The notes beneath the pieces were generated by a model. The model was not told the DNA's origin and made no database searches. It was given only the letters and a program-made list of their open reading frames with translations. From Ehretia macrophylla (taxonomy: Eukaryota; Streptophyta; Magnoliopsida; Boraginales; Ehretiaceae), in assembly GCA_037974665.1 (NCBI GenBank), contig CM075765.1, positions 61,530,247 to 61,594,246 of the forward strand: 64,000 nucleotides of DNA, given 5' to 3'. This document shows, one piece after another, positions 7,382 to 59,370 of this stretch. The first letter of the stretch is position 1; the number at the start of each line of letters is the position of its first letter. The position numbers and the translations under genes were made by a program.

Positions 7382-10068
7382 TGTAACACCTCGATCCCTC
7401 TCAAGACTGGGAGTTCTATCAATCAATCTAATCAGAACCCAATTCCAAACCCGGGCAAAATTTTTAGGTAAAACGGACGGAGTCTTCCCTGTTTCTAGGC
7501 AAAATTGCAAACTTGCGACAGCATATAAGTGGACCAGCACCGTGTCTAACCATACAAACACCTCAAGGCCATCCGAGCCTTGTTTCTCAACAAACAATCA
7601 TAAGCAAATATACATTTTCAGTTTATATGCTAACCTATCTCTTCTCGTCTTTGACAATTACATTCAAGCTTGACAATTAAACCATACTAATCTATTGCAT
7701 AAATTAGACTATCATACCATTCTAACTCTTTTCCTTTGGACATTACAAACATGCATTGAAGTTAAACTATACTATCTGAATACATAAGCTAGCATATCAT
7801 TCTACCTCAATTACCTAGTTAAATTTAAATTACATTCTTTTTGACAATAAATACATACAACACATGAACATACATCTTTGCATATTTGACAACTCAAGCC
7901 ACATAGCACGCAAGACAACTCTTCAAGCAAGATCTTTCATGCAACCACGAACTTTTCAGCTAACAAAGCATTTCCTGAAATGTGGTGGTGAGGAGTGAGT
8001 ATACATAACACGTATACTCAGTGAGGGCGAGACAGATATCGAGGTGGAGAGAAAGAAAGTCGTGCAATGCAAATAAGGCAGTTAAGCAATATAACTGACA
8101 AGTAAGCAATCAATATAAACAATCAATACAATAAACAAGTAATGAAAGCATTAACACAACCATTCAAAGATATACCACACTCTGAAGGCTATGGTTCACT
8201 CATACGAGCAATGTACCATTTCACGAGCGATACATCAATCTCGAGCTTGATGTTGACAACGATGACAATAAGCGCGCAACCACCTTATAACTTCAGTTTG
8301 GAATACCCCGGAAGTATCCATCAATTCTACGACCCAAATCTCCCGGGGAGGCAACCCAAGCGAGAATGGGAATAGGATACGGAGTTAGAGCAACCAACAC
8401 TAGCAGCCCGAGACTACCCAGAGAGGCCCATCACTCACGCGCCCGACACTATTCAATGCAAGACATGTTACAAGGCGATAAACGAGCGATAGCACAACAA
8501 TACAGATTAGAGGCGATAAACGAGCTATCAAGTATTTACAATCAATGCTAGCATTCAATTAACTTTTCACGCATAACTATCATTAATAGCAACAATAACA
8601 CCAATTAAACAAGTAACAGCAATTCAAACACGAAAATGACAAATATCACTATTCAATCTCTAACTTCCAAAGGCAATTACGAGCAAACGAGCTACGGGAT
8701 TAGGAAACCGATTTCACAACATTCACTCTGGCACTACAAGGCACGTTTCTATATCACTAAACCTCACTTTCCCAACCGAAGCCCGAAAGTCCACCTACTG
8801 CGTTTGAACTACAGCTATACTAACCGGACACTCAATCAACGCCACAACAGCGCCAAAAGTGCTTCCATGCCCTCAATAGCAAAACCCCCAACTCAATTCG
8901 AGCACGGTCAACTTTTGGTCAAGCGGCCCCTTTACGTTTCATTATCTAATTTCTAATTTTATCAAAGGCCGGTCCGTTTTTATTGCACATTTTATGTTTC
9001 TATCACTAATGGCACCTATCCAAATGAAGCAATCGCAATTCAGATCAAAATCCAAAATTCTAGGGTTTACTATTCAAAATTCACTATTCATTATTTTTTT
9101 CCAATTTCAAATATGCAATTTCGACCGTAAAATTTGCTAAATAACTATCAAACAATGCTCTACGAACTCAAAGGAAGTTATATCAAGCAATTATAGGCAT
9201 TATAACACATTATATATCAAATCTAAAAATTTGAAACAAAATGCAAATTCGAATTTAAATGTACAAAAGCGTGAAAACCCTCACAGAGATTGAAGACCAA
9301 GACCTGCAAGGACCCGAGCCACGACCCCCGAGCAATTCCACGCATGATTGCACAAGAAAAATGCAAAACAAAATTTCTTTCTTTTCCCTCAAACTTTTGG
9401 CCATGGCAAGGACACAAATGGCATTTTGCAAATTGTTTTTATTGATTTTTGCCTTGTTTATTATTTAAAATGGTGACAAGGGCATTTTGCTCATTTACAT
9501 AATCAAACTTTAGTTAAAATTGATCAAATAAGCTTATTTTGATGCCATTTAAATCTAATTCAAGTTAAAACAATGGAATTAAATGAAAAACAACTAAAAC
9601 TAGTTAAATTAAGCTAAAAACATTTTTCACTAATTCCGAAGAATATTTCTCTAACTCTTATTTTCGAAATACTACGATCGAACGGTCAATAAATGATCGC
9701 TAATAAAGTGATGAGCAATAATAGAAAACTTTAATTTTTCGAAAAGTAGAATAGTAGAATAGTTTAAAATTCACTCCGGCTCGGAGTTACTTTTCTCATT
9801 TATTTGAAAACTGAGTGATTTTAATGCAAGACAATTAAAACCAATTATTAAAATAATCAAATCAACCAAGATAATCAATATACATTTAAAATAATTAATT
9901 TAATTGTTTCTAGAATATTTTAAAGAATTATGAAGTTAATGCCAAGATACAGATGAACAAGTAAATCTAAACATGTAATCAAGTGCAATTAAATATTAAC
10001 ATTTAAGATGTCATTTAATTAAATGTAATTAAATGCTATTAAAGGAATGCCGGGTTCGGGTTATCACA
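7382..10068 (-). repeat. 5' LTR of element G
   Basis: 2687 bp. It contains the short dyad ACTCCG-GCT-CGGAGT near 9773-9787 and a TTTAAATAAT-like TATA word near 9463-9472. Confidence 0.9.
7975..9284 (-). other. Intron-like segment of G 5' LTR
   Basis: Donor-like CTCT|GTGAGGG at 9284 and acceptor-like CTCACCACCACATTTCAG|G ending at 7975, 1310 bp apart. D has the same positions and spacing (1309 bp after removal of E). Motif-based inference. Confidence 0.4.
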
Positions 10069-18903: not shown

Positions 18904-21376
18904 TGTAATACCCCGATCCCTCTCGAGACCGGGAGTTCTATCAATCGATCTAAACACAACCCAAACCAAACCCGGGCATAAATTTTCAGGGAAAACGGAC
19001 GGAGTCTCCCCTGTTCCTAGGCGAAAAGTAAAACCTGCGACAGCATATAAGTGGACCAATACCATGTCCAAACATTCAACCACCTCAAGGCCATCCGAGC
19101 CTTGGTTCACAAGCAGCAAAACCCAAGTAAATATACATTCAAGCTTGGCAATTAAACTACACCAACCTATATCATAAGCTAGACTATCATACCTTTCTAT
19201 CTTTTTTCCTTTATCATTACAAATATACATTGAAGTTAAGCTACATTAACTAAATACATAATCTAGTGAAAATTAAATTATATCCCCTTTAACATTAAAT
19301 ACATATAATACATAAAAGCATACAACTTTACAACTTTGACAACTCAAGTCACATAGGCATGCAGGACAACTCTTCAAGCACGGACTTTCACGAAATCACG
19401 AACTTTCCAGCTAACATGGCATTTCCTGAAATGTGGTGGTGAGGAGTGAGTATACACAACACGTATACTCAGTGAGGCGAGACAGATATCGAATTGGAGA
19501 GAAAGAAATTCGTGCAATGCAAATAAGACAGTTAAGCAATATAACTGATAAATAAGCAATCAAAACAAATAATCAATACAATAAGCAATTATTGAAAGCA
19601 TTAACAAAACCATTCAAAGCTATACCACACTTTGAAGGCTATGGTTCACTCATACGAGCAATGTACCATTTCACGAGCGATACATCAATCTCGAGCTTGA
19701 TGTTGACAACGATGACAATAAGCGTGCATCCACCTTATAACACCATTTTGGAATACCCCGAAGTATCCATCAATCTACGACCCAAATCTCCCTGGGAGGC
19801 AGCCCAAGCGAGAAGAGGGAGTAGCTACGGAGCTAGAGCAACCAACACTGGCAACCCGAGGCTACCCAGAGAGGCCCATCACTCACGTGCTGACACTATG
19901 CAATGCAAGACTCGATACAAGGTAATAAACGAGCGATAGCACAACAATACAAACTAGTGACAACAAACGAGATAACAAGCAATCACAATCAATACTAGCA
20001 TTCAACTAACTTTTCAAGCATAACAAGCAATAATAAGCAACAATAACACCAATTAAACAAGTATATCAAGCAACCCTAAGCATTCTATAGGCATAATATC
20101 AAGATAACAAGCAAAATCACAAATCGGCCCCAACTATCAAAATACTACCATTTCCAAACGAGCCACGAGTTCTGGAAACCGACTTCGCCAATCCTCCTAG
20201 GTCACCATAAGGCACGTCCAAGGACCCCGAAACCCTACTTTACCCTAGAATTCGCGCAAAGCCCTGATTTCCCCCTTTGCTCGTTTGAACTACAACTATA
20301 CCAACCAAACACCCAACAAATGCCATAATCGCACCAAAAGTGCTTCCATGGCCTCCCGAAACAATGCCAACACGCAAAACGAGAAAATTCCAAACTCGAC
20401 CTAAACGACCCCGACTTTCACTAAGCCGTTTTTCTCCATTTTTCCATTATACATTCCAATTAAACCACACATTTAGGCATTCTAGCATATCAACCATCTT
20501 CCTACATCAACAGAACGCGTAACGGAGCAACTTCATCGAAACAGGGGTTTACTATTCACAATTTACTATTCATCACACAATTTATATTTCAATTCCAATA
20601 TTTAACCGCAAAAAATGTTAAAAAACTATAAATACATGTTCTACAATCAACAAGGAACATTCTTTAAGCAACAAAACGATTAAAACAACAATCTACGCAT
20701 AAAATTCAAAAATCAAAGTTTAGATACAAATATTTCAAATGCGCAAATAACGATGAAACCCTCACCTTAGACGCTCCTAGACGCTAGGAAAACCCCGTAG
20801 AGTGCCTCGGAAACTACCCCGCACAAGCCCACGCGAAGAATCGAAGATTTGAAGTGGAGATTTTCTTTTTTTTTTTCTCCTTCTTTTCCTCATGGTTTCA
20901 AGCCTTTTTCTCTCTGTTTTTTTTGTGTGCATTCTGCTTATTTAGAAAAAAAAAAATGACAAGAAGTCAAAGGTCAAAATTCGGTCAACTCGCTAAACCA
21001 AAACAGCTATGCGCGACCTTAGGAAAACGGCCATAACTTCTTCTAGAAAACTCCAATTCACGAACGGTTTAAAGCCTCAGAAACTAGACTCATAGAGCTT
21101 TCCAATCATATATAATTTGCTACCTAACTCTTCCCCAATTGGTTCAGATTTAATTCCAAAGTTGACCCAAAATTTGACTAACTTAACATTGCATTTTTTT
21201 ATTTCTAATCCCAAGTTTGCCTTTTATTAAACATTTCAAAAATTCCCACCTTGTCCTAGTTGGTCAATGTAGATGAAAAGTCAACTAGTTTGGTCAAAGA
21301 AGGTGAAAGGTCAAAAAAATGCAAATAAAACGAACTTTAAATGCTATTGAATACATGCCAGGTTCGGGGTATCACA
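18904..21376 (-). repeat. 3' LTR of element I
   Basis: 2473 bp. Homologous to, but clearly diverged from, the LTR of G and D. Confidence 0.9.
19426..20765 (-). other. Intron-like segment of I 3' LTR
   Basis: Donor CTAAG|GTGAGGG at 20765; acceptor CTCACCACCACATTTCAG|G at 19426; 1340 bp. The other LTR of I has the same sites 1342 bp apart. Confidence 0.45.
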
Positions 21377-23375: not shown

Positions 23376-25860
23376 TGTGACGCCCGAGATTTAGCCATGC
23401 ATTTAATTACTGTTGCATCCCTTGTTTGCGCATTTATTTCTGTGCCTTACTAACTGACTTTTATGACTACTATTCACTCCATTTTTAAACTGCCTTCTAT
23501 TAGTTACTTAGCATTTTTATTAAATCATATTAATTGTAAAAGTAGTGGGAAAAATGTGCAATTGAGCTAGAGGCGATAGGAGAGCTCGTTTAGAAAATGA
23601 TTTTTAGTAGTGAAATGAATAGTGTTACGTAACTAACTTAGAAATTTAATTAGCTAGCACACATGTTCACCTTAGGCTCGTTTTTGAGCTTACTACGCGC
23701 ATTTTAGAAGCCACATAAGCACCCAATCAAGACCCCACCTTAGCCATTCATTAAATAACTTTATTTAGCTCATTAGATAACAAAGAAAAAAAAAGCTGAA
23801 ATAGGAGCAGGAGCAGGCCGACAGCAGCAAACAGTGAGGAAAAATCATTTTTGCTCTTCAATCCTTCATTTCAAGCCACTCCAAGCCTTGATCAACAAGT
23901 GTAGGGTGTTTGCAAGGTTCCTAGGTGCTCCTACACGCTTTGGTGAGGGATTTCACGGCTTGTTTTTGCATTTTTAAATAGTTGCTCATTTCTTGATTTG
24001 TTGAAAATATTATTAAATGCCATTGTAATTGTTATCGATGCTAATATACCATCTATATGAATGCTAGGGAACACATTTGAGCCGTTGTTTCGCTTTTCAA
24101 ACGGTTAGAATCGTTAGTTTGATTTTTAGGGTGAATAGTGATGTTTTTTCTAGGGTTTTGCGTAATTGCTCGAATTAGCTTGACTCAATGCTTCTAATAG
24201 ATGCCTTAGGTGTTAGTGAAGATAACCTAATAGCCCCGTGCACTTGCATTTCCCTTAAATTGCCTAAAAATGGAAAATAGCCGACTTTAACTTGGGGCTT
24301 TTGGGGTTAATGCGAATCCGGGTGGATTCGGGCTTCAATTCTAGTATCCTTAGGCTACCTAGGTGCTATAGATGCCTTGATATCCCTTGTTTGAAGCCCG
24401 GACAATGTACGCGTAGTTTAAAGCCATAAGAGGAAATTTGGGGCTTTCGTGGTAAACGCGAGCATTTGAATGAGTTAGAGGGCTGAGAGGGTACCTTGAG
24501 GGTTAGTTAGAAGGTTGGGAGAGTTTCCATCGAAAATGAAATCATTAACTTTGGTTTGGAAGAGAAATAGTTTGTAAAATAAAGGGGTTTAGGTGCAATT
24601 TCGGTTGTCTCACACTTCTAAACCCATGGCATGACTCCTTGAGTGTTTATATGTGATATTAAGTTGATTTGGAGCTTTTGGTATAATTCTATGGTTATTT
24701 TGTAATGTCTCTTTGCAAAACTGCATATTTGCTTATATAATTGTTCTATTCTAATTGCATCGAGGTCAACCTACTTTGTTGATCCTCATATGTGTTAATG
24801 CTTATATTATTGCTATTAACTTGCCATCGTTAATTGCATTGCATAGTGGTTGCGCAACCATAGTGTCAAGGGCGGATGTGTTGAATATCGGCTGGGCGGC
24901 AAAGGGCTTGCCGGTGGATATTCAAACTCCGTGCCCTATTCCCTCATTTGCCTGGTCCGGAGATTGCCAGGGGATGTTGGGTCGTAGGATTATCGGGGTA
25001 TATCCGGAGTACACCCACTGGAGTGTTTGGGATTATGCCGGCTTATCGTGATCGTGATCGTGGTTCGTGGATCCTGAATGAAGACCAGTGAAGATTGGTG
25101 TATAGGGGATTGTTGAAATGTATCCTTTTAATTGTGTGGTTATTTAAGTTATCATTGTTTCTTTAATTGTTTAAGTGTTATTGTTGTGTAATTGGATTAT
25201 CTGTTGCATTGCACGCCCCGAGACTATATCCCTCACTGGGCAACAGTGCTTGCTCATCTCTCGATATTTGTTTCAGGAGCCGCTGAGGGTGATCCCCAGC
25301 TTGTTGATTTAGTTGAGGAAGAAGAAGTTCAGATTGAGCCTTTACCTTAGTTGCTGTGCCTGATAGCTTGAGGTGGTTAATGAATTTGCTGCTATGTGGA
25401 AAGTTCAACTAATTGATTTATGTACTATTTTGTGGCCTAAGAGCTATGTATATGTTTTTTGTGCAAATTGAAGGATAGTAGATTGTGGTGTAGAATTGGA
25501 AGCCATGTCTTGTAATAACTTTTATTCTTGCCTTTATTTCCTTGCATGCTTGGGAGTGGATGGTTAATGTAGAATGCATTATCCTTTATGTTGTTTTATT
25601 GATTTCCTAGAATGTTATGATTATAAAACTATGCTAACAACAAGTTCTCGCATGCTTGTGTGTTTTGGAACTATTGTGTACCATAAGGCTCGGATGGCCT
25701 TATAGCTTTGTTGTTTAATTAAGAAAAGCTTGTATTGTATTGTTGGGACCTTGTTTGAGTGAGTACAGGTTTTTAGAATGTCCACGGTACAGGGGACACT
25801 CTGTCCGTGTGTCGGGTCCGAACTTAACCTTTAGCTTGGGGGTTGGGTCGGGGCGTGACA
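23376..25860 (+). repeat. Solo LTR J (gypsy)
   Basis: 2485 bp, TGTGACGCCCGAG...GGTCGGGGCGTGACA, flanked by perfect AATAC duplications (23371-23375, 25861-25865). No internal region, PBS or PPT, so it is a solo LTR left by LTR-LTR recombination. Its termini resemble those of the Tekay-type LTRs of A and B, but the body is a different family. The frame at 24755-25051 is not a recognisable gene. Confidence 0.9.
23943..25276 (+). other. Intron-like segment of LTR J
   Basis: Donor CTTTG|GTGAGGG at 23943. The motif CCTCACTGGG near 25230 is followed 46 nt later by acceptor TTTGTTTCAG|G at 25275-25276. Length 1334 bp. After the acceptor a short acidic frame (AAEGDPQLVDL...EEEEV...) ends in a stop, like the mini-ORF in the A/B/C LTRs. 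Confidence 0.42.
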
Positions 25861-28177
25861 AATACCATGTCCAAACATTCAACCACCGCAAGGCCATCCG
25901 AGCCTTGGTTCACAAGCAGCAAAACCCAAGTAAATATACATTCAAGCTTGGCAATTAAACTACACCAACCTATATCATAAGCTAGACTATCATACCTTTT
26001 TATCTCTTTTCCTTTATCATTACAAATATACATTGAAGTTAAGCTACATTAACTAAATACATAATCTAGTGAAACTTAAATTATATCCCCTTTAACATTA
26101 AATACATATAATACATAAAATCATACAACTTTACAACTTTGACAACTCAAGTCGCATAGGCACGCAGGACAACTCTTCAAGCAGGGACTTTGACGAAATC
26201 ACGAACTTTCTAGCTAACATAGCATTTCCTGAAATGTGGTGATGAGGAGTGAGTATACACAACACGTATACTCAGTGAGGGCGAGATAGATATCTAATTG
26301 CAGAGAAACAAACTCGTGAAATGCAAATAACATACTTAAACAATATAACTAATAAATAACCAATCAAAACAAATAATCAATACAATAAGCAATTACTGAA
26401 AGTATTAACACAATCATTCAAAGCTATACCACACTTTGAAGTCTATGGTTCACTCATACGAGCAATATACCATTTCACGAGCGATACATCAATCTCGAGC
26501 TTGATGTTGACAACGATGACAATAAGCGCGCATCCACCTTATAACACCAGTTTGGAATACCTCGGAAGTATCCATCAATCTACGACCCAAATCTCCCTGG
26601 GAGGCAGCCCAAGCGAGAAGAGGGAATAGCTACGGAGCTAGAGCAACCAACACTGGCAACCCGAGGCTATCGAGAGAGGCCCATCACTCACGTGCTGACA
26701 CTATGCAATGCAAGACTCGATACAAGACAATAAACGAGCGATAGCACAACAATACAAACTAGTGACAACAAACGAGATAATAAGCAATCACAATCAATAC
26801 TAGCATTCAACTAACTTTTCAAGCATAACAAGCAATAATAAGCAACAATAACACCAATTAAACAAGTACATCAAGCAACCCTAAGCATTCTATAGGCATA
26901 ATATCAAGATAACAAGCAAAATCACAAATCGGCCCCAACTATCAAAACACTACCATTTCCAAACGAGCAACGAGTTCTGGAAACCGACTTCGCCAATCCT
27001 CCTAGGTCACCATAAGGCACGTCCAAGGACCCCGAAACCCTACTTTACCCTAGAATTCACGCAAAGCTCCGATTTCCCCCTTTGCTCGTTCGAACTACAA
27101 GTATACCAACCAAACACCCAACCAATGCCATAATCGCACCAAAAGTGCTTCCATGACCTCTCGAAACAATGCCAACACGCAAAACGAGAAAATGCCAAAC
27201 TCGACCTAAACGACCCCGACTTTCACTAAGCTATTTTTCTCCGTTTTTCCATTATACATTCCAATTAAACCACACATTTAGGCATTCTAGCATATCAACC
27301 ATCTTCCTACATCAACAGAACGCGTAACGGAGCAAGTTCATCGAAACGGGAGTTTACTATTGATAATTTACTATTCATCACACAATTTATATTTCAATTC
27401 CAATATTTAACCGGAGAAAATGTTAAAAAGCTATAAATACATGTTCTACAATCAAGAAGGAACATTCTTTAAGCAACAAAATGATTAAAACAACAATCTA
27501 TGCATAAAATTCAAAAATCAAAGTTTAGATACAAATATTTCAAATGCGCAAATAACGATGAAACCCTCACCTTAGACGCTCCTAGACGCTAGGAAAACCT
27601 CGTAAAGTGCCTCGGAAACCACCCCGCACAAGCCCACGCGAAGAATCGAAGATTTGAAGTTGAGATTTTCTTTTTTTTTCTCCTTCTTTTCCTCATGGTT
27701 TCAAGCCTTTTTCTCTCTATTTTTTTCGTGTGCATTTTGCTTATTTAGAAAAAAAAATAACAAGAAGTCAAAGGTCAAAATTCGGTCAACCCGCTAAACC
27801 AAAACAGCTATGCGCGACCTTACGAAAACGGCCATAACTTCTTCAAGAAAACTCCAATTCACGAACGGTTTAAAGCCTCAGAAACTAGGCTCAGAGAGCT
27901 TTTCAACCATATATAATTTGCTACCTAACTCTTCACCATTTGGTTCAGATTTAATTCCAAAGTTGACCCAAAATTTGACTAACTTAACATTGCATTTTTT
28001 TATTTCTAATCCCAAGTTTGACTTTTATTAAACATTTCAAAAATTCCCACCTTGTCCTAGTTGGTCAATGTAGATGAAAAGTCAACTAGTTTGGTCAAAG
28101 AAGGTGAAAGGTCAATAAAATGCAATTTAAATAAACTTTAAATGCTATTGAATACATGCCAGGTGCGGGGTATCACA
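25861..28177 (-). repeat. 5' LTR of I, remainder
   Basis: Continues the LTR after J; ends TATCACA, then the ATGTA duplication. The intron-like segment is 26229-27570 (1342 bp). Confidence 0.9.
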
Positions 28178-31457: not shown

Positions 31458-32741
31458 TGTGATAACCCGAACCCGGCATGCATTTAATAGCATTTGACTG
31501 CATTTGATTAAATGTTTAATTAGTTAAACCAACCAATTTGCACTATTTTAATATTTCTCTTGGAAGTATTTAGTAGTTGTAAATTGAATAATTAAAAGAT
31601 TATTATCTATTTCTAATGATTATAGTAATTGAATTTATTCTCTTGTGATTAATTAAGTGTTATCTTAAATGTTAGGGTTTAATTGTATTTGACTACGTGT
31701 TTATATTAATCTTCATTTGTAGCTTAATATTAACTTCATAATTCTTTAAAATGTTCTAGAAATAGTTAAATTAATTATTTTAAATGAATATTGATTACCT
31801 TGATTGTTTTGATTATTTTAATAATCGGTTTTGGTTGTTTTGCATTAAAATCACTCGGTTTTCAAATAAATGAGAAAAGTAACTCCGAGCCGGAGTGAAT
31901 TTTAAACTATTCTACTATTCTACTTTTCAAAGAATTAAAGTTTTATATTATTGCTCATCACTTTATTAGCGATCGATTATTGACTGTTTGATCGTAGAAT
32001 TTCAAAAATAGGAGTTAGAGAAATATTCTTCGGATTTAGTGGAAAATGTTTTTAGCTTAATTTATCTAGTTTTAGTTGTTTTTCATTTAATTGCATTGTT
32101 TTAACTTGAATTAGATTTAATGGCATCAAAATAAGCTTATTTGAGTATTTTTAATTAAAGTTTGATTTTGCAAATGACCAAAATGCCCTTGTCACCATTT
32201 AAATTAAAAACAAGGCAAAAAATGACCCTTGTATCCTTGCCATGGTTGAAGGGTCATAGAGAGAAAAAGAAAGGAATTTTCTTGCATTTTCTTCTACAAT
32301 TGCGCGTGGAATTGTTCGGGGGTTGTGGCTCGGGTCCTTGCGGGTCTTGGTCTTCAATCTCTGTGAGGGTTTTCATGCTTTTGTGCATTTTAATATGAAT
32401 TTGATTTTTGAGTCAATTTTTCAGATTTGATATTTATCGCGTTATAATGCCTGTTATTGCTTGAAATAGCTTGCTTAGGGTTCGTAGAGCATTGCTTGTT
32501 AGTTATTTAGCAATTTTTACGGTCGAAACAGCGTATTTGAAATTGGGGAAGAACATGAATAGTGAATTATGAATAGTAAACCCTAGAATTTCGGATTTCG
32601 ATCCGAATTGCGATTGCTTGGTTTGGATAGATGTCATTAATGATAGAAAGCTAAAATGTGAAATAAAAACGGATCGGCCTTTGTTAAAATTGGAAATTAG
32701 ACAAAGAAACGTAAAAGGGCCATTTGACCAAAAGTTGACCG

Positions 32742-35130
32742 TGTCACGCCCCAACTCGACCCCTCTTATAATCAGTCAGGATGCAACAGAATTTCAGCAG
32801 TATAACGACAGTAAATAGGATACCGAGGCTCTAAACCAACCTCCATAGGACATCATACCTCAACTCCATAAACCATACAATAAACAACTCTTCAATAACA
32901 TAATAACATACACCATGACCATATCATACAATAAACATTTCTCGTTATATGCCTCCGTTCCAACATAATACATAAGTCCTTAATATACAATACAAAACAT
33001 GTTGAGCCAATCTAGCAACCTAGTCATAAACAAAAGAAAGGCCACTAAGACAACATCAACTAATTCATTAACTTATCAACATCTTATACATTATAAACTA
33101 CAAAGCAGATGAAAGTCTACTATGTTAAATTACAAGATAATAAAACATGTATGACATCACGGATAAGACTCTGGAACATAGGACTCATCCACGTAAGGCA
33201 CGTTTTTCACATTCTCCTCTTCAGGAGGCACGTACCCGTAATCTTGCGAAAGTACACCTGTAAACATGTAATAATAGAGAGTGAGCTTATATAAAATAAG
33301 CCCAACAAGGATCCGATAGATCTCGAGCAAGGTCTACTAAACTCCTTGGAATAATCCTTTGAGTCAGTAGACACACAATAACATAAACAATACTATCATC
33401 ACATAACAATATAACCATTCAATAAAGGATACTCTAGTTGGTGTAGCTCCATACGCCATCACGATCTCAACCATTCTTCTTATAACTCGCCATTACTCAC
33501 ACACCATAGGTACCTCACTAGCCCCTCCCTCCATGACACCTCCGTCATAGGAGTTGGGGGTAGTCTCTGGCAGTCATGCCGTTTTCAACCCAACAGCCCA
33601 ATGCTGCTCGAGAGATGGCACACACATACCAAGACTCCATAACAATCATCAATCATCAATCAATCAATCAATAATCATCTACTCATCAATACTAGCATCA
33701 ATAATCAATTAGACAACAAATAACTAAGTTAGATGACAAAGTAGGCCATCTAACCGAACATGCATTAAACACACAATCGAACTCTAATTTACCCATCAAA
33801 AACTCACAATTCAATCACTCAACCCACAACCAATCAACTAAAGCTCAATCTAACATTTTAAAGAACTGCAACCTAAACTTCAATTAATCATATCTTACAT
33901 TCTACTAATTCAAACAACTCCAAATCAGTTTCAAACACTCACCCATTCAACCATCTACATTAGGCCCCTCGGAAAACCACCATAACACCTCCAAAGCATG
34001 TCCGATAACTCTAAAACCCTAAGGTGTCAAGGCTGAATTTTCCGAATTTTCACCCAAACATCATAATCGAAAATTCAGCATTACAACGGCGTTACCACGT
34101 AATTATCAAACATTTAGAAATCGAAGGCAATCGATTCCGATCAACACAACTCAATTAAATCAACATTGAACAATTTAATCAAATTTAAATACCTGAAAAA
34201 TAAAAATTATGCTACAACTGATAAAAAAACGTAGTATTACAGCTAAATGATCCCTAGCATGCATGGAGCAATAATCTAACATCATATTAGAATTCTAACG
34301 GTTCAATCTTCATTTATACGTAAAAATACAAAAGACAAATTTTGAGATCTAGAATTTTTCTCTCACCTTTGATCCCAAGTAAAGCTAGGAATGCGTGCAA
34401 TAGGTGCCCAACAAGCGGAATCCAGCCCGGTTTGAAAAGATTCGGACTTTAAATGAGTTTTCTAAGGTAAAATTACTTTGAAAATAAGTTGAATAAAATC
34501 TCTTTTTTTCCTAAGCTTTCGCGGCTGCAAGGTGTGTGTAAATGTGGTGTTTTGCTTTGTTTCATTGTGTGTTGGTGATAGATGCATGAAAGTCAAAGTC
34601 AAATGAAAGTCAAAGTTGAAACTTTAGTATTTTTAGTGTTTTCTTGACTTTAAATGCATTTTATTGATCACCAAAGTTCAAAACAATTATTCAACACCCA
34701 AGATAGCTCAAGTAGGTTATTTTTAGGTGACAAGAAGTTTTACAATCGAACAATTTCACCCGAGTCAGCTTAAAACTCGATTTTTGCAAAAGTCGGTGTA
34801 AAAACCCTAATAAATTCTTGAGCTGATTTTAAAATCGTTTTAATCAAACACAGGTCTATTAAAATCCGTGGACTAGGTCTAGAAGGGTTAAAAAGACCAG
34901 TTTCAAAATTTTAGCGGTCGTGTTTCGAATCACTATTCACTAAAAATCGACGATAAAATTTCTGACTCCATTTTTTATGAAAATTTCATGAATGCACATT
35001 TAGCACGTATTAGGAGTATTGATATCAAAATTATAACATTCTAGGCCCTATAGCACATAAACAAGTCATATGCACGCAAAACGAGATAAAGCATGTAAAT
35101 CAAGTTAAAGCATATAAGTGGGGTTTCACA
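32742..35130 (-). repeat. Solo LTR E (Tekay-like)
   Basis: 2389 bp, TGTCACGCCCCAAC...GGGGTTTCACA on the plus strand. Flanks are GACCG (32737-32741) and GACGA (35131-35135), a decayed duplication: G-family LTRs read GACCATGCTCG or GACCGTGCTCG at this point. No PBS, PPT or internal region. Confidence 0.87.
33258..34366 (-). other. Intron-like segment of LTR E
   Basis: Donor CAAAG|GTGAGAG at 34366; acceptor ACATGTTTACAG|GTG at 33258; 1109 bp. The mini-ORF after it carries a 6-bp in-frame insertion relative to A and B. Confidence 0.42.
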
Positions 35131-36667
35131 GACGATGCTCGAATTGAGTTGGGGGTTTTGCAATTGAGGATATAGAAGCACTTTTGGCGCTGTTGTGGCA
35201 TTGATTGAATGACTGGTTAGCATAGTTGTAGTTCAAACGCAGTAGGTGGACTTTCGTGTCTCGGGTGAGAAAGTGAAGTTTAGTGACATAGAAACGTGTC
35301 TTGTGGTGCCTAAGTGAATGTAGTGAAATCGGTTTCCTAATCCCGTAGCTCGTTTGCTCGTAATTGTCTTTGGAAGTTAGGGATTAAATAGTGATATTTG
35401 TTGTTTTTGTGTTTGAACTGCTGTTACTTGTTTAATTGTTGTTATTGTTGCTTATTATTGCTTGTTATGCTTGAAAAGTTAGTTGAATGCTAGTATTGAT
35501 TGTGATTGCTTGTTATCTCGTTTGTTGTCACTAGTTTGTATTGTTGTGCTATCGCTCGTTTATTGCCTTGTATCGAGTCTTGCATTGCATAGAGTCAAGC
35601 GCGTGAGTGAAGGGCCTCTCTCGGAAGTCGCGGGCTGCCAGTGGTGGTAGCTCTAGCTCCGTAGCTATTCCCTCTTCTCGCTTGGGTTGCCTCCCAGGGA
35701 GATTTGGGTCGTAGATGGATTGATACTTCCGAGGTATTCCAAACTAGTGTTATAAGGTGGTTGCGCGCTTATTGTCATCGCTGTCAACATCAAGCTCGAG
35801 ATTGATGTATCGCTCGTGAAATGGTATATTGCTCGTATGAGTGAACCATAGCCTTCAGAGTGTGGTATAGCTTTGAATGGTTATGTTATTGCTTTCAGTA
35901 ATTGCTTATTGTGTTGATTGTTTGTCTCGATTGCTTACTTATTAGTTATATTGCTTAACTGTCTTATTTGCATTGCACGACTTTCTTTCTCTCCAACTCG
36001 ATATCTGTCTCGCCCTCAATGAGTATACGTGTCGTGTATACTTATTCCTCACTACCACATTTCAGGATATGCCTTGTTAGCTGGAAAGTTCGTGGTTACG
36101 TGAAAGATTGTGCTTGAAGAGTTGTCTTGCGTGCTATGTGGCTTGAGTTGTCAAAGATGCAAAGATGTATGCTTCCATGTATTGTATGCATTTAATGTCA
36201 AAAGGAATGTAATTTAAGTTTCATTGGATTGTTGAAGTAGTTTGATAAGTTAGATTATGTATCTAGTTATTATAGTTTAACCTCAATGCATGTTTGTAAT
36301 GTCCAAAGGAAAAGAGTTAGAATGGCATGATACTTTATTTTTTGAACTAGCTTAGTATGGTTTAATTGTCAAATTCAAATGACCTTGTCAAAAATGAAAA
36401 GAGATAGGTTAGCTTTTATATTGGAAAGGTATGTATACTTGCTAAGTTTAATTGTTGAGAACCGAGGCTCGGATGGCCTTGAGGTGGTTGAAAGTTTGGA
36501 CATGGTATTGGTCCCCTTATATGCTGTCGCAGGTTTTACATTTCGCCTAGAAACGGCAGAGACTCTGTCCGTTTTCCCTAAAATTTATGCCCGGGTTTGG
36601 TTTGGGTTGTGATTAGATTGATTGATAGAACTCCCGGTCTCGAGAGGGATCGGGGTGTTACATATTA

Positions 36668-40169: not shown

Positions 40170-42591
40170 TGTGAAACCCCACTTTTCTGCTTTAAACTCG
40201 ATTTATGTGTTTTATCTCGTTTTGCGTGCATTTGACCTGTTTATGTGCTATATGACTTATAATGTGGTAATTTTGGTATCAATACTCCTAGAACATGCTA
40301 AATGTGCATTCATGAAATTTTTATCAAAAACGGAGCTAGATATTTTATCGTCGATTTTTAGTGAATAGTATTTTCGAAACACGTCTGCTAAAATTTTGAA
40401 ACTGGTCTTTTTAACCCTTCTAGACCTAGACCACGGACTTTAATAGACATGTGTTTGATGAAAACGGTTTTAAAATCGGCTTAGGAATTTATTAGGGCTT
40501 TTACACCGACTTTTACAAAAATTGAGTTTTAAGTCGACTCGGGTGGAATTTTTTGATTATAAAACTTCTTGTCACCTAAAAATAACCTACTTGAACTATC
40601 TTGAGTGTTGAATAATTGTTTTGAACCTTGGTGATCAATAAAATGCATTCAAAGTCAAGAAAACACTAAAAACACTAAAGTTTCAACTTTGACTTTCATT
40701 TAAAATCTTGACTTTCATGCATATATCATCAACACACATTGCCAAAGCACAAAAACACACTCATTTTCACACACATGGCCGAGATTTTCATGGGAGAGTA
40801 AGCCAAGGAGTTTTCAAGGTTTTCAAAGCAAAATTTCAAAGAAAAACCTAGTTTTTATCCGTAGAACTTCGTGCCGACTTGGATTCTGCTTGTTGGGCAC
40901 ACATTCCTAGACTTATATCACATCAAAGGTGAGAGAAAAATTCTAGATCTCAAAACTTGTCTTTTGCATTTTTGTATATAAATGAAGATTGAACCGTTAG
41001 AATTGTAATCTGATGTTAGATTATTGCTCCTTGCATGCTAGGGATCGTTTAGTGGTAATACTACGAGTTTCTGTCGGATGTAGCATAATTTTTATTTTTC
41101 GGGTATTAAATTTTGATTAAATTGTTTAATGTTGAATTAATTGAGTTGGGGTAATCGAAATCGATTGCTGTCGATTTTTAAATAATTGATAATTGCGTGT
41201 TAGCGCTGTTGTAATTCCGATTTTTCGATTACATTGCTCGTGGGAAAGTTCAAAAAATTCAGCCAAGACATCCTAGGGTTTTAGGGTTATCGGGCATGAT
41301 TTGGAGGTGTTATGGTGGATTTTCGAGAGGGCTAATGTAGTAGGTTGAATGGGTGAGTGATAGAAACTGATTTGGCAATGTTTGGGTTAGTAGAATATAA
41401 GTTATGAATTTTTGAAGTTTAGGTTGTCTTTCTTTAAATTCTTAAACTATGTCTTTAGATGATTGGGTGGTGTTTGAGTGATTGAATGGTGAGTTGTTGA
41501 TGGGTAAACTAGGGTCTAATTGTGTATTTAGTGCATGTCCGGTTGGATGGCCTACTTTGTCATCTAACTTAGTTATTTGTTATCTAATTGATTATTGATG
41601 TTATATTGATGTAAAGATGATTATTGATGATTATTGGTGAACCGGGAGACAGGAAATTCTTCTTGATTGTCCTCCTGTATTGTGAATGATATTTATTATT
41701 ATTGCTGAGTCTTGGTATGTGTGTGCCACCTCTCGGGCAGCATCGGGCTATTGGGTTAATAACGGCATGACTACCAGAGACTACCTCCAGCTCGCATGAC
41801 GGAGGTGTCATGGAAGGTGAGGCTAGTGAGGTACCTCGGGTGCGTGAGTAATGGGGAGTTACAAGAAGAATGGTTGAGATCATGATGGCGTTTGGAGCTA
41901 CACCAACTAGAGTATCCTTTAATGAATGGTTATATAGTTATATGATGATAGTATTATTGATGTTATTGTGTGTTTACTGACTCAAAGGATTATTCCAAGG
42001 AGTTTAGTAGACCTTGCTCGAGATCTATTGGATCCTCACTGGATTTATTTTATATAAGCTCACTCTCTATTATTGCATGCATACAGGTGTACTTTCACAG
42101 GATTACGGGTACGTGCCTCCTGAAGAGGAAAATGTGCCTTACGTGGATGTGTCCTATGTGCCGGAGTCTTAGCCTTGATGTAGTACTGTCTTACTATCTT
42201 GTACATTAACTTAGTAGACTTTTATATGCCTTGTAGTTTATAATGTAAAAGATGTTGAAAAGATAATGAATTAGTTGATGATGTCTTGGTAGCCTTTCTT
42301 TTGTCTATGTTTAGGTTGCTAGGTTGGTATCAACATATTTTGCGATGTATATTAAGGTTTACGTATTATGTTGGAACGGAGGCGCATGACGAGGAATGAT
42401 TATTGTATAATATGGTTATGATGTATGTTGTATTTTATTGAGGAGTTGTTTGTTGTATGGTTTATGGAGTTGATGTATGATGTTCTAATGAGGTTGGTTT
42501 AGAGCCTCGGTATCCTATTTATTGTTGTTATACTGCCGAAATTCCGTTGCGTCCTGACTGATTGTAAGAGGGGTCGAGTTGGGGCGTGACA
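40170..42591 (+). repeat. 5' LTR of A
   Basis: 2422 bp, TGTGAAACCCC...GGGGCGTGACA. TATATAAG at 42051-42058. Confidence 0.92.
40929..42086 (+). other. Intron-like segment of A 5' LTR
   Basis: Donor CAAAG|GTGAGAG at 40929; CTCAC branchpoint-like word and acceptor GCATGCATACAG|GTG at 42085-42086; 1158 bp. Upstream, near 40720-40770, an ATATATCATC word and a CA-rich run look like a transcript start and leader. Confidence 0.45.
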
Positions 42592-42597
42592 TTTAAG

Positions 42598-44660: not shown

Positions 44661-44681
44661 CTTTTCTATAGATCGATGCAG

Positions 44682-44699: not shown

Positions 44700-44701
44700 T
44701 C

Positions 44702-46025: not shown

Positions 46026-46800
46026 TGTGAAATCCCACTTTTCTGCTTATCTCGTTTTACGTGCTATACATCGTTTTGCGTGCATATGATCTGTTTATGT
46101 GCTATAGGACCTAGAAAGTTATAATTTTGATGTCAATACTCCTAATACGTGCTAAATGTGCATTCATGAAATTTTCATCAAAAACGGAGTTAGAAATTTT
46201 ATCGTCGATTTTCAGTGAATAATGTTTTCGAAACACGTCCGCTAAAATTTTGAAACTGGTCTTTTTAACCCTTCTAGACCTAGTCCACGGACTTTAATAG
46301 ACCTGTGTTTGATGAAAACGGTTTTAAAATCGGCTTAAGAATTTATTAGGGTTTTTACACCGACTTTTGCGAAAATCGAGTTTTAAGCCGACTCGGGTGA
46401 AATTGTTGGATTGTAAAACTTCTTGTCACCTAAAAATAATCCACTTGAGATATCTTGGGGGTTGCATAATTATTTTGAGCTTGGTGAGCAATAAAATGAG
46501 TTTAAAGTCATTAAAACCCAAAAATATTAACTTAAACTACTTTGACTTTGCAATTTTTTTATTTGACCAAGCTTTTAAATACTTCTTGTCATCAACACAC
46601 ACTCACACAACACAAAACACACTCCACAGACACACACAAGGCCGAGAGAAAGAAGAGAGAAAAAGAAAGAGAAAAACTCAAGCTTTTCAATCATTTTTTC
46701 AAAGAAAAACCTAGTTTTTGTCCGTAGAACTTAGCACCAACTTGGATTCTTTTTGTTGGGCACGCATAGCACGTATGCCTAGGCTTATATCGCATCAAAG

Positions 46801-47907
46801 GTGAAAGAAAAATTCTAGATCTCAAAATGTCATTTTTATGTTTTTGCTCATAAATGAAAATTTAACCGTTAGAATTGAAATCTGATGATAGATTATTGCT
46901 CCTTGCTTTCTAGGGATCGTTATATACTAATACTACGAATTTCTATCGGATGTAGCATAATTTTTATTTTTCGGGTATTTAATTTTGATTAAAATGTTCA
47001 AAGTTGAATTAAATGAGTTGTGTTGATCGAAATCGATTGCCGTCGATTTCTAAATACTTGATAATTACGTGTTAGCGCTGTTGTAATGCCGAATTTTCGA
47101 TTACATTGTTTGTGTGAAAATCCAGAAAATCCAGCCATGACACCTTAGGGTATTACGGTTATCGGGAATGATTTGGAGGTGTTATGGTGGATTCCGGAGA
47201 GGACTAATGTAGTAGGTTGAATGGGTGAGTGATAGGAACTGATTTGGCAATGTTTGGATTAGTAGATTGTAAGTTATGAATTTTAGAAGTTTAGGTTATC
47301 ATTCTTTAATTTCTTGAACGATGCCTTTAGATGGTTGGGTAGTGTTCGAGTGATGAATGGTGAGTTATTGATGAGTAATTTAGAGTTTAATTTTGTATAT
47401 GATGCATGTCCGGTTAGATGGCCTACTTTGTCATCTAACTAAGTTATTGATTGATTATTATTGAGTTCGGGAATCAGGCACTTTCGTTGCTGATCTCCCA
47501 ATTGATTGATTGATGATTGATGATTATGGAGTCTTGGTATGTGTGTGCCACCTCTCGGGCAGCGTCGGGCTGTCGGGTTGATAACGGCATGACTGTCATA
47601 GGCTACCCCCAGCTCGCATGACGGAGGTGTCATGGAGGGAGGGGCTAGTGAGGTACCTCGGGTGCGTGAGTAATGGGGAGTTATAAGAAGAACGGTTGAG
47701 ATCGTGATGGCGTTTGGAGCTACACCAAATAGAGTATCCTTTAATGAATGGTTATATAGTTATGTGATGATAATGTTATTATTGTTGTTGTGTGTTTACT
47801 TGCTCAAAGGATTAAATCCAAGGAGCGTAGTGAATACTGTCGAGATCTATCGGATCCTCACTGGGCTTATGTATATAAGCTAACTCTCTATTATTGCATG
47901 CTTACAG
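46801..47907 (+). other. Intron-like segment of B 5' LTR
   Basis: Donor CAAAG|GTGAAAG at 46801; perfect plant-type branchpoint CTAAC at 47880-47884, 23 nt before acceptor GCTTACAG|GTG at 47906-47907; 1107 bp. The 3' LTR has the same layout at 54192-55294 with GTGAGAG. Confidence 0.48.
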
Positions 47908-47999
47908 GTGTTGCAGAGCCGGATTACGGGTACGTGCCTCCTGAGGAGGAAAATGTGCCTTACGTGGACGAGTCATATGTTCCTGAGTCTTATCCATGA
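47898..47999 (+). other. Conserved acidic mini-ORF in LTR B
   Basis: 33 codons, ATG start at the putative splice acceptor, core AEPDYGYVPPEEENVP, then VDESYVPESYP and stop. In the 3' LTR (55289-55386) one codon is a stop (TAC to TAG). Function unknown; may be conserved as DNA. Confidence 0.35.
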
Positions 48000-48403
48000 T
48001 TATATGTTGTTTAATGTCATGTATTAGCTTAATAGACTTTTATATGCTTTGTGGTTCTTATTGTAATAGATGTTGAAAGATGATAATCCAAACGATGTTA
48101 ACTTAGTGGCTTTCTTTTGTCTATGGTTAAGTTGTAGTTGTGTCTCAACTTATTTTTGAAATGTATGATAAGGTTGAGGTATTGTATGTCATATTGGAAC
48201 GGAGGCGTATAATGAGGATGGTTTATTGTATAATATGGTTGTGATGTATGTTGTTGTTATGCTGTTGAGGAATTGCTGGATGTATGATGTTTTATGAGGT
48301 TGGTTTAGAACCTCGGAAATCTATTTACTGTCGTTATGCCGACGAAATTCCGTTGCGTCCTGACTGATTGTAGGTGGTGTCGAGTTGGGGCATGACATTT
48401 AAG

Positions 48404-53417: not shown

Positions 53418-55784
53418 TGTGAAACCCCACTTTCCTGCTTATCTCGTTTTACGTGCTATACCTCGTTTTGCGTACATATGATCTGTTTATGTGCTATAGG
53501 ACCTAGAAAGTTATCATTTTGATGTCAATACTCCTAATACGTGCTAAATGTGCGTTCATGAAATTTTCATCAAAAACGGAGTCAGAAATTTTATCGTCGA
53601 TTTTCAGTGAATAGTGTTTTCGAAACACGTCCGCTAAAATTTTGAAACTGGTCCTTTTAACCCTTCTAGACCTAGTCCACGGACTTTAATAGACCTGTGT
53701 TTGATGAAAACAGTTTTAAAATCGGGTTAACAATTTATTAGGGTCTTTACACCGACTTTTGCGAAAATCGAGTTTTAAGCCGACTCGGGTGAAATTATTG
53801 GATTGTAAAACTTCTTGTCACCTAAAAATAATCCACTTGAGATATCTTGGGGGTTACACAATTATTTTGAGCTTGGTGAGCAATAAAATGAGTTTAAAGT
53901 CATTAAAACCCAAAAATATTAACTTAAACTACTTTGACTTTGTATTTTTTTAATTGACCAAGCTTTTAAATACTTCTTGTCATCAACACACACTCACACA
54001 ACACAAAACACACTCCACAAACACACACAAGGCCGAGAGAAAGAAGAGAGAAAAAGAAAGAGAAAAACTAAAGCTTTTCAATCAATTTTTCAAAGAAAAA
54101 CCTAGTTTTTGTCAGTAGAACATCGCACCGACTTGGATTCTGCTTGTTGGGCACGCATAGCACGCATTCCTAGGCTTATATCGCATCAAAGGTGAGAGAA
54201 AAAGTCTAGATCTCAAAATGTCATTTTTATGTTTTTGCTCATAAATGAAAATTTAACCGTTAGAATTGAAATCTGATGATAGATTATTGCTCCTTGCATG
54301 CTAGGGATCGTTATATGCTAATACTACGAATTTCTGTCGGATGTAGCATAATTTTTATTTTCCGGGTATTTAATTTTGATTAAAATGTTCAAAGTTGAAT
54401 TAAATGAGTTGTGTTGATCGAAATCGATTGCCGTCGATTTCTAAATACTTGATAATTACGTGTTAGCGCTGTTGTAATGCCGAATTTTCGATTACATTGT
54501 TGGTGTGAAAATCCGGAAAATCCAGCCATGACATCTTAGGATTTTAGGGTTATCGGGCATGATTTGGAGGTGTTATGGTGGATTGCTGGGAGGGCTAATG
54601 TAGTAGGTTGAATGGGTGAGTGATAGGAACTGATTTGGCAATGTTTGGATTAGTAGATTGTAAGTTATGAATTTTAGAAGTTTAGGTTGTCATTCTTTAA
54701 TTTCTTGAACGATGCCTTTAGATGGTTGGGTAGTGTTCGAGTGATGAATGGTGAGTTATTGATGAGTAATGTAGAGTTTAATTTTGTATATGATGCATGT
54801 CCGGTTAGATGGCCTACTTTGTCATCTAACTAAGTTATTGATTGATTATTATTGAGTTCGGGAATCAGGCACTTTCGTTGCTGATCTCCCAATTGATTGA
54901 TGATTGATGATTATGGAGTCTTGGTATGTGTGTGCCACCTCTCGGGCAGCGTCGGGCTGTCGGGTTGATAACGGCATGACTGCCATAGGCTACCCCCAGC
55001 TCGCATGACAGAGGTGTCATGGAGGGAGGGGCTAGTGAGGTACCTCGGGTGCGTGAGTAATGGGGAGTTATAAGAAGAACGGTTGAGATCGTGATGGCGT
55101 TTGGAGCTACACCAAATAGAGTATCCTTTAATGAATGGTTATATAGTTATGTGATGATAATGTTATTATTGTTGTTGTGTGTTTACTTGCTCAAAGGACT
55201 AAATCCAAGGAGCGTAGTGAATACTGTCGAGATCTATCGGATCCTCACTGGGCTTATGTATATAAGCTAACTCTCTATTATTGCATGCTTACAGGTGTTG
55301 CAGAGCCGGATTAGGGGTACGTGCCTCCTGAGGAGGAAAATGTGCCTTACGTGGATGAGTCATATGTTCCCGAGTCTTATCCATGATTATATGTTGTTTA
55401 ATGTCATGTATTAGCTTAATAGACTTTTATATGCTTTGTGGTTCTTATTGTAATAGATGTTGAAAGATGATGATCCAAACGATGTTAACTTAGTGGCTTT
55501 CTTTTGTCTATGGTTAAGTTGTAGTTGTGTCTCAACTTATTTTTGAAATGTATGATAAGGTTGAGGTATTGTATGTCATGTTGGAACGGAGGCGTATAAC
55601 AAGGATGGTTTATTGTATAATATGGTTGTGTTGTGTGTTGTTGTTATGCTGTTGAGGAGTTGGTGGATGTATGATGTTTTATGAGGTTGGTTTAGAACCT
55701 CGGAAATCTATTTACTGTCGTTATGCCGCCGAAATTCCGTTGCGTCCTGACTGATTGTAGGTGGGGTCGAGTTGGGGCGTGACA
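53418..55784 (+). repeat. 3' LTR of B
   Basis: 2367 bp, TGTGAAACCCC...GGGGCGTGACA; about 3% different from the 5' LTR where compared. Confidence 0.93.
54192..55294 (+). other. Intron-like segment of B 3' LTR
   Basis: Donor CAAAG|GTGAGAG, acceptor GCTTACAG|GTG, 1103 bp. Confidence 0.45.
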
Positions 55785-56937: not shown

Positions 56938-59370
56938 CATTGAACATTCTTTTACCATTGCATCCATAGGTTATACATCTTCGTTCCAAAATCATACATT
57001 TACTATATAACATACATTTCCAAAATAGATTATAACCAATTCAGCAACCTAACCATGTTCCCAAACAAGACAACTAAATTAGCAATATACATAAGTCTTA
57101 TAATTGAGTATGTTATTCAATATATCATATTACAACAACTAAGACAAATTCATGGCAACGACTTCGGCACACAAGACTCGTCCACATAAAGCACATTCTC
57201 AGCTTCTTGGGGCATGTATCCGTAATCTTGATCAATATCACCTGTATGCATGCAATAATTGATAGTGAGCTTATATAAAACAAGCCCAGTGAGGATCCGA
57301 TAGATCTCCAATAGTATTTACTACACTCCTTGGAAATGATCCTTTGAGCAGTAAACACACAATAAACATCAATAACAATATAAACACATAAACTATAATG
57401 ACCATTCAATAAAGGATACTCTAGTTGGTGTAGCTCCAAACGCCATCACGATCTCAACCAACTTCTTATCACCCCCATCACATACACACCCAAGGTACCT
57501 CATTAGCCCTGCAATCCATGGCAACTCCGCCCATGCGAGATGAGGGTAGCCTTTGATAGACATGTCATTTTCAGCCCGACGGCCCGATACTGCCCGAGAT
57601 ATGGCACACGCATATCAAGACTCAGTAATAATAATAAACATTCAATCACAGGAAGACAACCTTTTCCGTTGACTATCTCCCGGTTCATCAATAATCAATA
57701 TTCAGTAATCAATAATCAATAATGCATCAATCAATTAATAACATTACAACAACACAACATCAATTACCCAATTAACAACTAAACAACTAAGTTAGAAGAC
57801 AAAGTAGGCCACCCAACTTAACATGCATTAGACACACAACCAAACCCTATTCAAGCCATCAACAACTCGCAATTCAATCACTCAAACACCACCCGATCAT
57901 CTAAAGGCATATAACAACATTTTAAAGAAAGATAATCTAAACATCAAATAATCATAACTTACATTCTACTAATCCAAACAACTACAAACCAGTTCCTATC
58001 ATTCACCCACTCAATCAACTACAATAGCCCCCTCAGAAACCAACCAAAATACATCCAAATCATGCCCAACAACCCTAAAACCTCAATGCACCTAGGCTGA
58101 AATTTTTGGACTTTCACATCGACATCACAATCAAAATTTCGGCATTACAACGGTACTACCACATATTTAACAAACTTTTACAAATCGACGGCAATCGATT
58201 CCAACCACTACAAGTCAAATTATTCAACTAATAGCCAACAACTCAACTTTTAGTACCCGAAAATAAAAATTCACGCTACAACGGTTCAAATCTTTTATAA
58301 ACGCATATAAACAATCCTTAGCATGCACTGAGCAATAATATAGCATCAATTCAACTTTCTAACGGTTCAAAATTCAATTATATCCAAAAACATAAAATTG
58401 ACATTTTGAGATCTAGAATTTTTCTCTCACCTTTGATATGTTTTGATGCAAGAAAGATGTAGAATGGATGCCCAACAACTGAAATCAAGTTTTGAATGAA
58501 GTGATTTGGACTTGAATTGCAAAATCTATTTGCCAAATGCTTTAAAAAACCTTGAAAGTGCCTTCTTTCCTCTCTCTCATGGATTTTCTGTATTGTGTGC
58601 ATAAAATGATTGTGTTTTGTGAGGTTTTAATGTGTGTTGATGATATCTTAAGCAAAGGTCAAACAAATAAAAGAAAGTCAAAGTTGACACTTAGTTATTT
58701 TTAGTGTTTTCTTGTCTTTTAATTCCATTTTAGACTATTTGTTGCTCAAAACATTAATTTAACACTTAGACTATTTTAAGTAGTTTATTTTTAGGTGATA
58801 AGAGTTTTCTCATGCAAAGACTTTCACATGACTCAACTAAAAACGCGATTTCTGCAAAAGAAGGTGAAAAGTCATATTATTTATTTTCAAATGTCTTTTG
58901 AATGCACAATTAATATAAAATCATTTAATACCACATATAAATACATTTATATTAATATATAATAGGTCAACGAAAGTCAATGCAAGAATCGGGTTTTGAA
59001 GAAATTACTATTTGGCTCAAAAACGCTACTTTTCGCCTGAAAAGTCTACTTAAATTACTATTCTGCTTCATAATCAATTTTTATCAAACATGGGTCTATT
59101 AATAACAGAGGACTAGGTTTTAAGATGTTTAAAACACCCTTGTAAAAATTTTAGCGGATAGGTGTTCAAAACACTATTTACAAAAATCGTCGATAAAATT
59201 TTTGATGCCGTTTTTGATGAAAATTTCATGAATGCACACATAGCATGTATTAGGAATATAAATCACATATTTAGCACATTCTAACTCATATAACACATAA
59301 ACAGGTAAAATCACGCAAATCTAGGCAAAGACATGCAAATCGAGGTAAAAACAAAAACTAGGGTTTCACA
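56938..59370 (-). repeat. 5' LTR of C, remainder
   Basis: Continues the LTR begun at 40005; ends GGGTTTCACA. Confidence 0.9.
57242..58430 (-). other. Intron-like segment of C 5' LTR
   Basis: Donor CAAAG|GTGAGAG at 58430; acceptor GCATGCATACAG|GTG at 57242; 1189 bp. Confidence 0.43.

Follow-up and report, generated by a model that had tools for sequence, protein, structure and literature searches.

A probable spliceosomal intron within the long terminal repeats of Tekay-like retrotransposons in Ehretia macrophylla

The window analysed here, a stretch of 64,000 nucleotides of Ehretia macrophylla DNA, holds a series of LTR retrotransposons, designated by letters, whose LTRs and internal features are listed in Table 1. 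In element B, pieces of gag, PR, RT-RNaseH and INT were identified with Pfam in Ty3/gypsy order, and the LTRs bounded by TG..CA, the primer binding site (PBS; TGGTATCAGAGC, which we take to be a tRNA-iMet PBS) and the 5-bp target duplication are those of Ty3/gypsy elements. A Pfam Chromo match at the C-terminus of pol is weak (E=0.034, below its cut-off). Membership of the Tekay/Del clade of chromoviruses fits the elements, on the basis of termini like those of RIRE8/Retrosat2, of gene order and of general features of the clade rather than of a tree. Element B (46026-55784) is inserted in the 3' LTR (44717-56932) of element A, and the solo LTR E (32739-35130) is inserted in LTR D (31649-36665). 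The internal regions of G (~1.6 kb, 5776-7381) and A (~2.1 kb, 42593-44716) are short, and both elements look non-autonomous. A fragment at 14210-15106 with Pfam matches to Pol_BBD, gag_pre-integrs and zf-CCHC is presumably part of a Ty1/copia polyprotein.

Table 1. Coordinates of LTRs, LTR introns and intron features in the window (a slash marks the exon-intron boundary).
Feature	Coordinates	Strand	Details
LTR A (5' LTR)	40170..42592	+	exon 1 40170-40928, intron 40929-42086, exon 2 42087-42592
LTR intron A	40929..42086	+	donor CAAAG/GTGAGAG, acceptor ATACAG/GTG
Branch-like CTCAC, intron A	42059-42063	+	
Hairpin H1, intron A	41541..41569	+	constant loop CUACUUU
Hairpin H2 region, intron A	42034..42066	+	overlaps branch-like motif; weak fold in copy A
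LTR B, 5' copy	46026..48397	+	exon 1 46026-46800, intron 46801-47907, exon 2 47908-48397
PBS of element B	48404		
LTR intron B5	46801..47907	+	branch-like CTAAC 47880-47884
Hairpin H1 in B5	47412..47440	+	
Hairpin H2 region in B5	47856..47888	+	
LTR B, 3' copy	53418..55784	+	
LTR intron B3	54192..55294	+	H1 54803-54831, H2 55243-55275, branch-like CTAAC 55267-55271
LTR E, solo, nested in D	32742..35130	-	exon 1 35130-34367, intron 34366-33258, exon 2 33257-32742
LTR intron E	33258..34366	-	H1 33755-33727, H2 33310-33278, branch-like motif from 33285
LTR intron C	57242..58430	-	H1 57818-57790, H2 57294-57262
LTR G	7382..10068	-	exon 1 10068-9285, intron 9284-7975, exon 2 7974-7382; PBS adjoins
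LTR intron G	7975..9284	-	H2 8026-7994; H1 loop not found
LTR intron D	32363..36065	+	3703 bp including nested LTR E (32739-35130)
LTR intron I, 3' LTR	19426..20765	-	H2 19477-19445
LTR intron I, 5' LTR	26229..27570	-	H2 26280-26248
LTR J	23376..25860	+	exon 1 23376-23942, intron 23943-25276, exon 2 25277-25860
LTR intron J	23943..25276	+	H1 24760-24788, H2 25231-25263

A first-pass annotation of the window had proposed that these LTRs carry an intron-like interval between a donor-like and an acceptor-like site. All ten donor-acceptor pairs were recovered at the coordinates given there, and the interval lengths agreed for A (1158 bp), both LTRs of B (1107 and 1103 bp), E (1109 bp) and C (1189 bp), which are referred to here as Tekay types, as well as for G (1310 bp), both LTRs of I (1340 and 1342 bp) and J (1334 bp). 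The donor of B was placed correctly at 46801 but reads GTGAAAG instead of the GTGAGAG originally described, and in the second LTR of G the donor has decayed to ATGAGGG. With LTR borders defined by self-comparison (those of C and I are approximate), the donor is located 567-842 bp from the LTR start and the acceptor 306-593 bp before the LTR end. In nine window LTRs, the A of a branch-like CTNAY motif precedes the last intron base by 20-24 nt. With GT at the donor, AG at the acceptor and a branch-like motif 18-50 nt before the latter, all shared between lineages, the interval presents the features of a U2-type intron. An AT-rich promoter-like stretch and a CA-rich leader were seen, by eye, ~200 nt before the donor in Tekay types.

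The pattern extends well beyond the window, with 13,274 occurrences of CAAAGGTGAGAG across the source genome versus 50 of its reversed control. In order to sample LTRs independently of their splice sites, a combined LTR-end and PBS signal, found at 10,527 places in the genome and at none in the reversed control, was used; 100 of these matches were listed, and the first 40 of them were taken. Each LTR was analyzed for a GTGAGRG donor and a T-rich YAG/G acceptor 1080-1450 nt apart, a pattern that was fitted after the splice sites had been seen. Of the 40 sampled LTRs, 23 passed this motif test, possibly by chance in the case of L061, and none of the 40 reversed sequences did; the remainder of the sample had the donor alone (3/40), the acceptor alone (11/40, some of these being truncated LTRs) or neither (3/40). 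In a MAFFT alignment of 14 chosen LTRs, seven from the window and seven from the sample, the donors fall in one column (13 with GT, and L053 decayed to AT) and so do all 14 acceptors. Mean identity between the five deep LTR groups in this alignment is 0.35 over 2107 usable columns, whereas the donor 9-mer reaches a between-group identity of 0.87, ranking first of 2099 windows, and the acceptor window reaches 0.75, ranking 18th of 2099. The expectation of the first-pass annotation that both sites should be more conserved than the flanking LTR bases is hence borne out. Its companion expectation, that the sites should outscore those of shuffled LTR sequence, failed: when scored with a plant weight matrix and compared with the best site in shuffled LTRs, the fractions ranged from 0.31 to 1.00 over nine LTRs. 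Within its own LTR, the donor score ranked first or second in six of nine cases and the acceptor score in nine of nine. The conservation of the sites is therefore well above chance; their strength alone is not.

Three covarying folded elements, designated H1, H2 and M3, were located from the conservation peaks of the intron. H1 lies ~0.6-0.8 kb into the intron and consists of a stem of ~8-11 pairs capped by the loop CUACUUU, constant apart from CUACUCU in L043; the stem sequences vary by family while the pairing is kept. It is present in 8 of the 10 families tested, and was not found in the other two, I and G. Among ten families selected on the presence of the loop, RNAfold z scores range from -2.4 to -6.8, and when right arms were swapped among these families, some of which are close relatives, the real score was reached in 0 of 20000 permutations; with an energy score and eight families, it was reached in 8 of 20000. 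For H2, which is located immediately before the acceptor and whose 3' side is overlapped by the branch-like motif (CTCAC, CTAAC or CTCAT), the real score in the same energy-based test on eight families was reached in 1 of 20000 permutations, although it folds poorly or otherwise in three of 14 LTRs (A, L049 and L053). The corresponding value for M3, ~110-220 nt after H1, is 15 of 20000, and the lowest among 17 control columns is 45 of 2000. A search of Rfam returned no match in 40100-48700. Donor, acceptor, branch-like motif and all three RNA folds thus persist across families whose aligned LTRs share ~35% identity.

Introns in leaders often increase the expression of plant genes, and the main value of the intron might be to enhance expression from a promoter-proximal position or to block premature polyadenylation, its removal being a by-product. 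In the latter form of this explanation the donor would recruit U1 snRNP, as in the R region of foamy viruses, and prevent cleavage in the 5' LTR, and the fact that the donor is the most conserved 9-mer of the alignment fits this explanation. A polyadenylation block alone, however, needs neither a conserved acceptor nor three covarying structures, and a donor present in both LTRs cannot on its own distinguish the 5' from the 3' LTR. We regard it as unlikely that this is the main role of the intron, but it is compatible with the reading favored here, that of a genuine spliceosomal intron in the leader, and the two are not exclusive. Retroviruses provide parallels for the position of the donor. 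In HTLV and BLV the major splice donor is located inside R, and the acceptors of foamy viruses lie downstream of the LTR. According to the available part of PMC3694450, foamy viruses have a splice donor within the LTR at both ends, as is the case here, and the donor in R blocks polyadenylation in the 5' LTR. Unlike foamy viruses, the present elements have donor, branch-like motif and acceptor all in one LTR, so that an intronless LTR is heritable; the donor would lie within the transcribed part of the LTR.

The first 70-90 nt of exon 2 (42087-42175, 47908-47997 and 25277-25350) resemble the coding end of an acidic peptide, and their 3-periodicity is seen in two LTR groups. A single spliced gene made of exon 1 and exon 2 was rejected, as exon 1 is not clearly 3-periodic and stops occur at the junction in several families, and an unspliced frame with an upstream Met was rejected as well, being available in only 6 of 14 LTRs (five Tekay types and L049). 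A third arrangement, in which the acceptor mainly serves a coding splice that joins another donor, for instance at the 3' end of pol, to the acidic frame of exon 2, accords with several observations. Over the first 90 nt of exon 2, mismatch at codon positions 1, 2 and 3 is 0.08, 0.17 and 0.32 in Tekay types and 0.17, 0.20 and 0.33 in J types, in both groups 3-periodicity is highest across the LTR in a window that begins 23-40 nt past the acceptor, and a phase-1 donor-like GTAAGAAT is located 41 nt before the 3' LTR in element B and in the J-type element at C5 described below. This donor was promising in B, but in J types the joined exons would run into TGA at the junction, as seen for C5 and for the 5 fetched ends, out of 12, that could be parsed, and the pol-end splice was dropped; in several families, moreover, a TAA lies just before the LTR junction in the exon-2 frame, and no upstream exon accounting for the periodicity was found. 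The GA-rich stretch of exon 2 may instead be an exonic splicing enhancer, and such a purine-rich enhancer may account for part of the periodicity. That coding is the main purpose of the acceptor is, on balance, quite improbable. The word GTAAGAAT itself lies at 53377 in element B, recurs at the same place in C5 and in the same 5 of 12 fetched J-type ends (7 unparsed), and is absent from six other element ends inspected, that of the C14 element having GTGAAGAA there.

A genuine intron may also be recognized by its loss from transposed copies. The 1.58-Gb source genome was searched with short junction patterns and the matches were then read. At seven loci, all read at base level, LTRs are missing exactly the predicted GT..AG interval, and these loci cover five LTR types (E-, C-, G-, I- and J-like). 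The intron is absent from both LTRs in all four loci that were read with two LTRs, and perfect 5-bp target duplications (TSDs) are found at five of the seven. At C14 (~6.107 Mb), two 1,268-bp LTRs, 97.2% alike as a pair, miss the intron to the base and otherwise align colinearly with both exons of LTR E, the one LTR of the window to which exon 1 of this element can be matched along its full length; the element has a TSD (AACCT), a PBS and a polypurine tract, with 1,257 bp between its LTRs. Two G-type elements have intronless LTR pairs, one at C2:62.47 Mb (pair 93.3% alike, with a target duplication that is not clean) and one at C9:34.88 Mb (95.2% alike, TSD CTCGG), and may stem from one common loss. 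The J type is represented by a solo LTR without intron on C7 (TSD GGGTG) and by a complete 7,373-bp intronless element on C5, of which the ends were read (TSD GAGTG; LTRs of 1,162 bp each with 16 differences between them). The C7 LTR is closer to an intron-bearing J LTR (0.92/0.95) than to C5 (0.81/0.90), so the two losses are probably separate. The remaining loci are an I-type solo LTR at C2:11.95 Mb (TSD ATGGG) and a C-like tandem-array unit at C2 7.31 Mb with precise intron loss, the one unit that was read of the region. At C2:7314617-7347881 there are five intronless LTR junctions, four of them spaced ~3.0 kb, which points to a spliced element repeated in tandem, the four further units (7.31-7.35 Mb) being known by junction pattern alone. 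Matches at C8:49142585, C14:748483 and C11:13441828 are likewise by pattern only and are not counted among the seven.

The specificity of the junction patterns differs among types. Reversed-pattern controls returned 0 matches in the searches for G (5 matches), J (1 and 3) and I (2) junctions. In the E-type search, 2 matches compare with 2 in the reversed control, and in the C-like search matches and control are about equal (10 and 9), so that the loci of these two types rest on the reading of their DNA. Two junction matches were discarded on reading: C10:50050111 does not match the G, I or J references, and C4:418423 has no G or I LTR but a J LTR nearby on the other strand. When 201 nt of natural sequence spanning the C9 junction were used as a query, 40 of 3,829 candidates were scored, and the match extended over the entire query at the C9 and C2 pairs alone; the remaining 36 of the 40 scored matches begin at query positions 102-104, and exon 2 starts at 102. 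For the TCTTTAGG-spacer family, the genome junction search found no spliced copy. In six spliced copies tested, the H1 loop and the H2 leader motif are absent, H1 being unexpected in the G and I types in any case.

Intronless LTRs might alternatively be ordinary deletions, produced when reverse transcriptase switches templates at short direct repeats. A template switch during minus strong-stop synthesis would likewise alter both LTRs, and the donor and the acceptor of E-type LTRs both carry AGGTG, five nucleotides that could guide it. Homology at the boundaries is, however, just 1 nt in G, 2 in J and 3 in I, yet GT..AG ends recur in seven loci, and the one control junction examined, with a 6-nt homology in an E-type LTR, had 0 matches, which makes deletion a very improbable source of these copies. 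It is likewise very improbable that the conserved sites are core-promoter signals with transcription starting near exon 2, given that the word in question, TATATAAG, while lying ~35 nt before the acceptor in Tekay types, falls within the H2 region and is absent from I, G and J LTRs, and that intronless transposed copies need RNA begun upstream of the donor.

Copies that lack the exact interval most likely arose by splicing, and then reverse transcription, of RNA begun upstream of the donor, which implies that transcription starts in exon 1. Exact removal, as expected of a spliceosomal intron, is seen here indirectly, in the DNA of transposed copies, and this evidence outweighs the failed splice-score test. 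We therefore consider it very probable, judging from sequence, that these LTRs contain a genuine spliceosomal intron of ~1.1-1.4 kb in their transcribed leader, which is spliced by the host. As regards the leader intron postulated by the first-pass annotation, the splicing part stands on precise intronless copies of five LTR types, and its detailed assignment to R/U5 is an extrapolation.

How such an intron would be used by the elements can be outlined from its content and from the scarcity of its loss. Transcripts begun in exon 1 would be spliced by the host, presumably only in part, and the product would occasionally be reverse transcribed. For the J type, 2 spliced loci stand against 4,344 matches to acceptor plus exon 2 (with up to 3 mismatches), two figures that come from different search patterns. 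The rarity of spliced copies suggests that replication proceeds almost always from unspliced RNA, or that splicing itself is rare. Since nearly all LTRs retain the intron, the unspliced RNA would be the genome that is packaged and copied. The intron hairpins may mark or retain this RNA for packaging, dimerisation or export, with H2, which overlaps the branch-like motif, possibly tuning splicing, and the spliced RNA would act as mRNA with a leader 1.1-1.4 kb shorter. The final 210 nt of exon 1 contain fewer ATGs than expected (15 observed versus 40.4), and exon 2 does not (271 observed versus 165.9 expected); a spliced leader would thus keep many upstream ATGs, which counts against a simple translation benefit. 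A sorting role of this kind, in which intron hairpins keep unspliced RNA as genome while spliced RNA is translated, is a plausible proposal that falls short of being probable. More tentatively, a whole abundant clade might carry a splicing-controlled RNA sorter in its LTRs, with hairpins needed for packaging or retention, splicing turning genome into mRNA, intronless LTRs as its fossils and the intron as the reason for long LTRs and R regions.

The available part of a 2025 review (PMC12786077) describes plant LTR retrotransposons as generally intron-free, with Ogre and EVADE as exceptions. No intron within the LTR of a plant element was encountered among the literature matches listed, which is weak evidence in that most subscription journals and preprints fall outside their coverage. 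Ogre is a Ty3/gypsy element of the Tat clade with an intron, whereas the intron described here belongs to the LTR leader and occurs in two copies in every element. BARE1 and EVADE resemble the present elements in that splicing takes place in a plant LTR element, but their introns lie within gag-pol instead of the LTR, so far as the accessible portions of PMC3735527 and PMC12786077 describe them. In BARE, separate RNA pools serve translation and replication, and amplification from barley DNA yielded no copies of spliced RNA (PMC3735527, in part), whereas the present elements have such copies. The CaMV 35S RNA, from another plant reverse-transcribing element, similarly has a donor in its 5' leader and is partially spliced, but CaMV lacks LTRs and its main acceptor is in ORF II (PMC4498817, in the part available). 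Rice Retrosat2/RIRE8, with termini of the same kind as those of the present elements, has a very long LTR whose R region is put at 2,023 bp, and the accessible main text of PMC3485330 describes no intron in it; Retrosat-2 is placed under Tekay in the available part of PMC6317226. By analogy, an LTR intron could explain the long R of Retrosat2/RIRE8.

The introns of plant LTR retrotransposons named in these papers, as far as the available texts go, lie in the coding region, and the intron described here is wholly within the LTR. An LTR intron is doubled in every copy, survives only where splicing stays outside replication and is lost in one step, and it therefore provides a natural test of which RNA is replicated. 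It also offers an explanation for the long LTRs and R regions of the clade, and H1 is a concrete candidate for a packaging element in plant retrotransposons. Intronless LTRs constitute datable genomic markers of splicing that need no RNA data, and the arrangement suggests that solo LTRs near genes could supply a ready promoter together with a 5' intron. As a separate observation on the genomic setting of these repeats, five LTR pieces of the sample, L028, L029, L031 and L032 (C1, 0.63-2.03 Mb) and L034 (C1, 3.09 Mb), adjoin tandem 5S rRNA genes (Rfam RF00001) with a repeat unit of ~677 bp.
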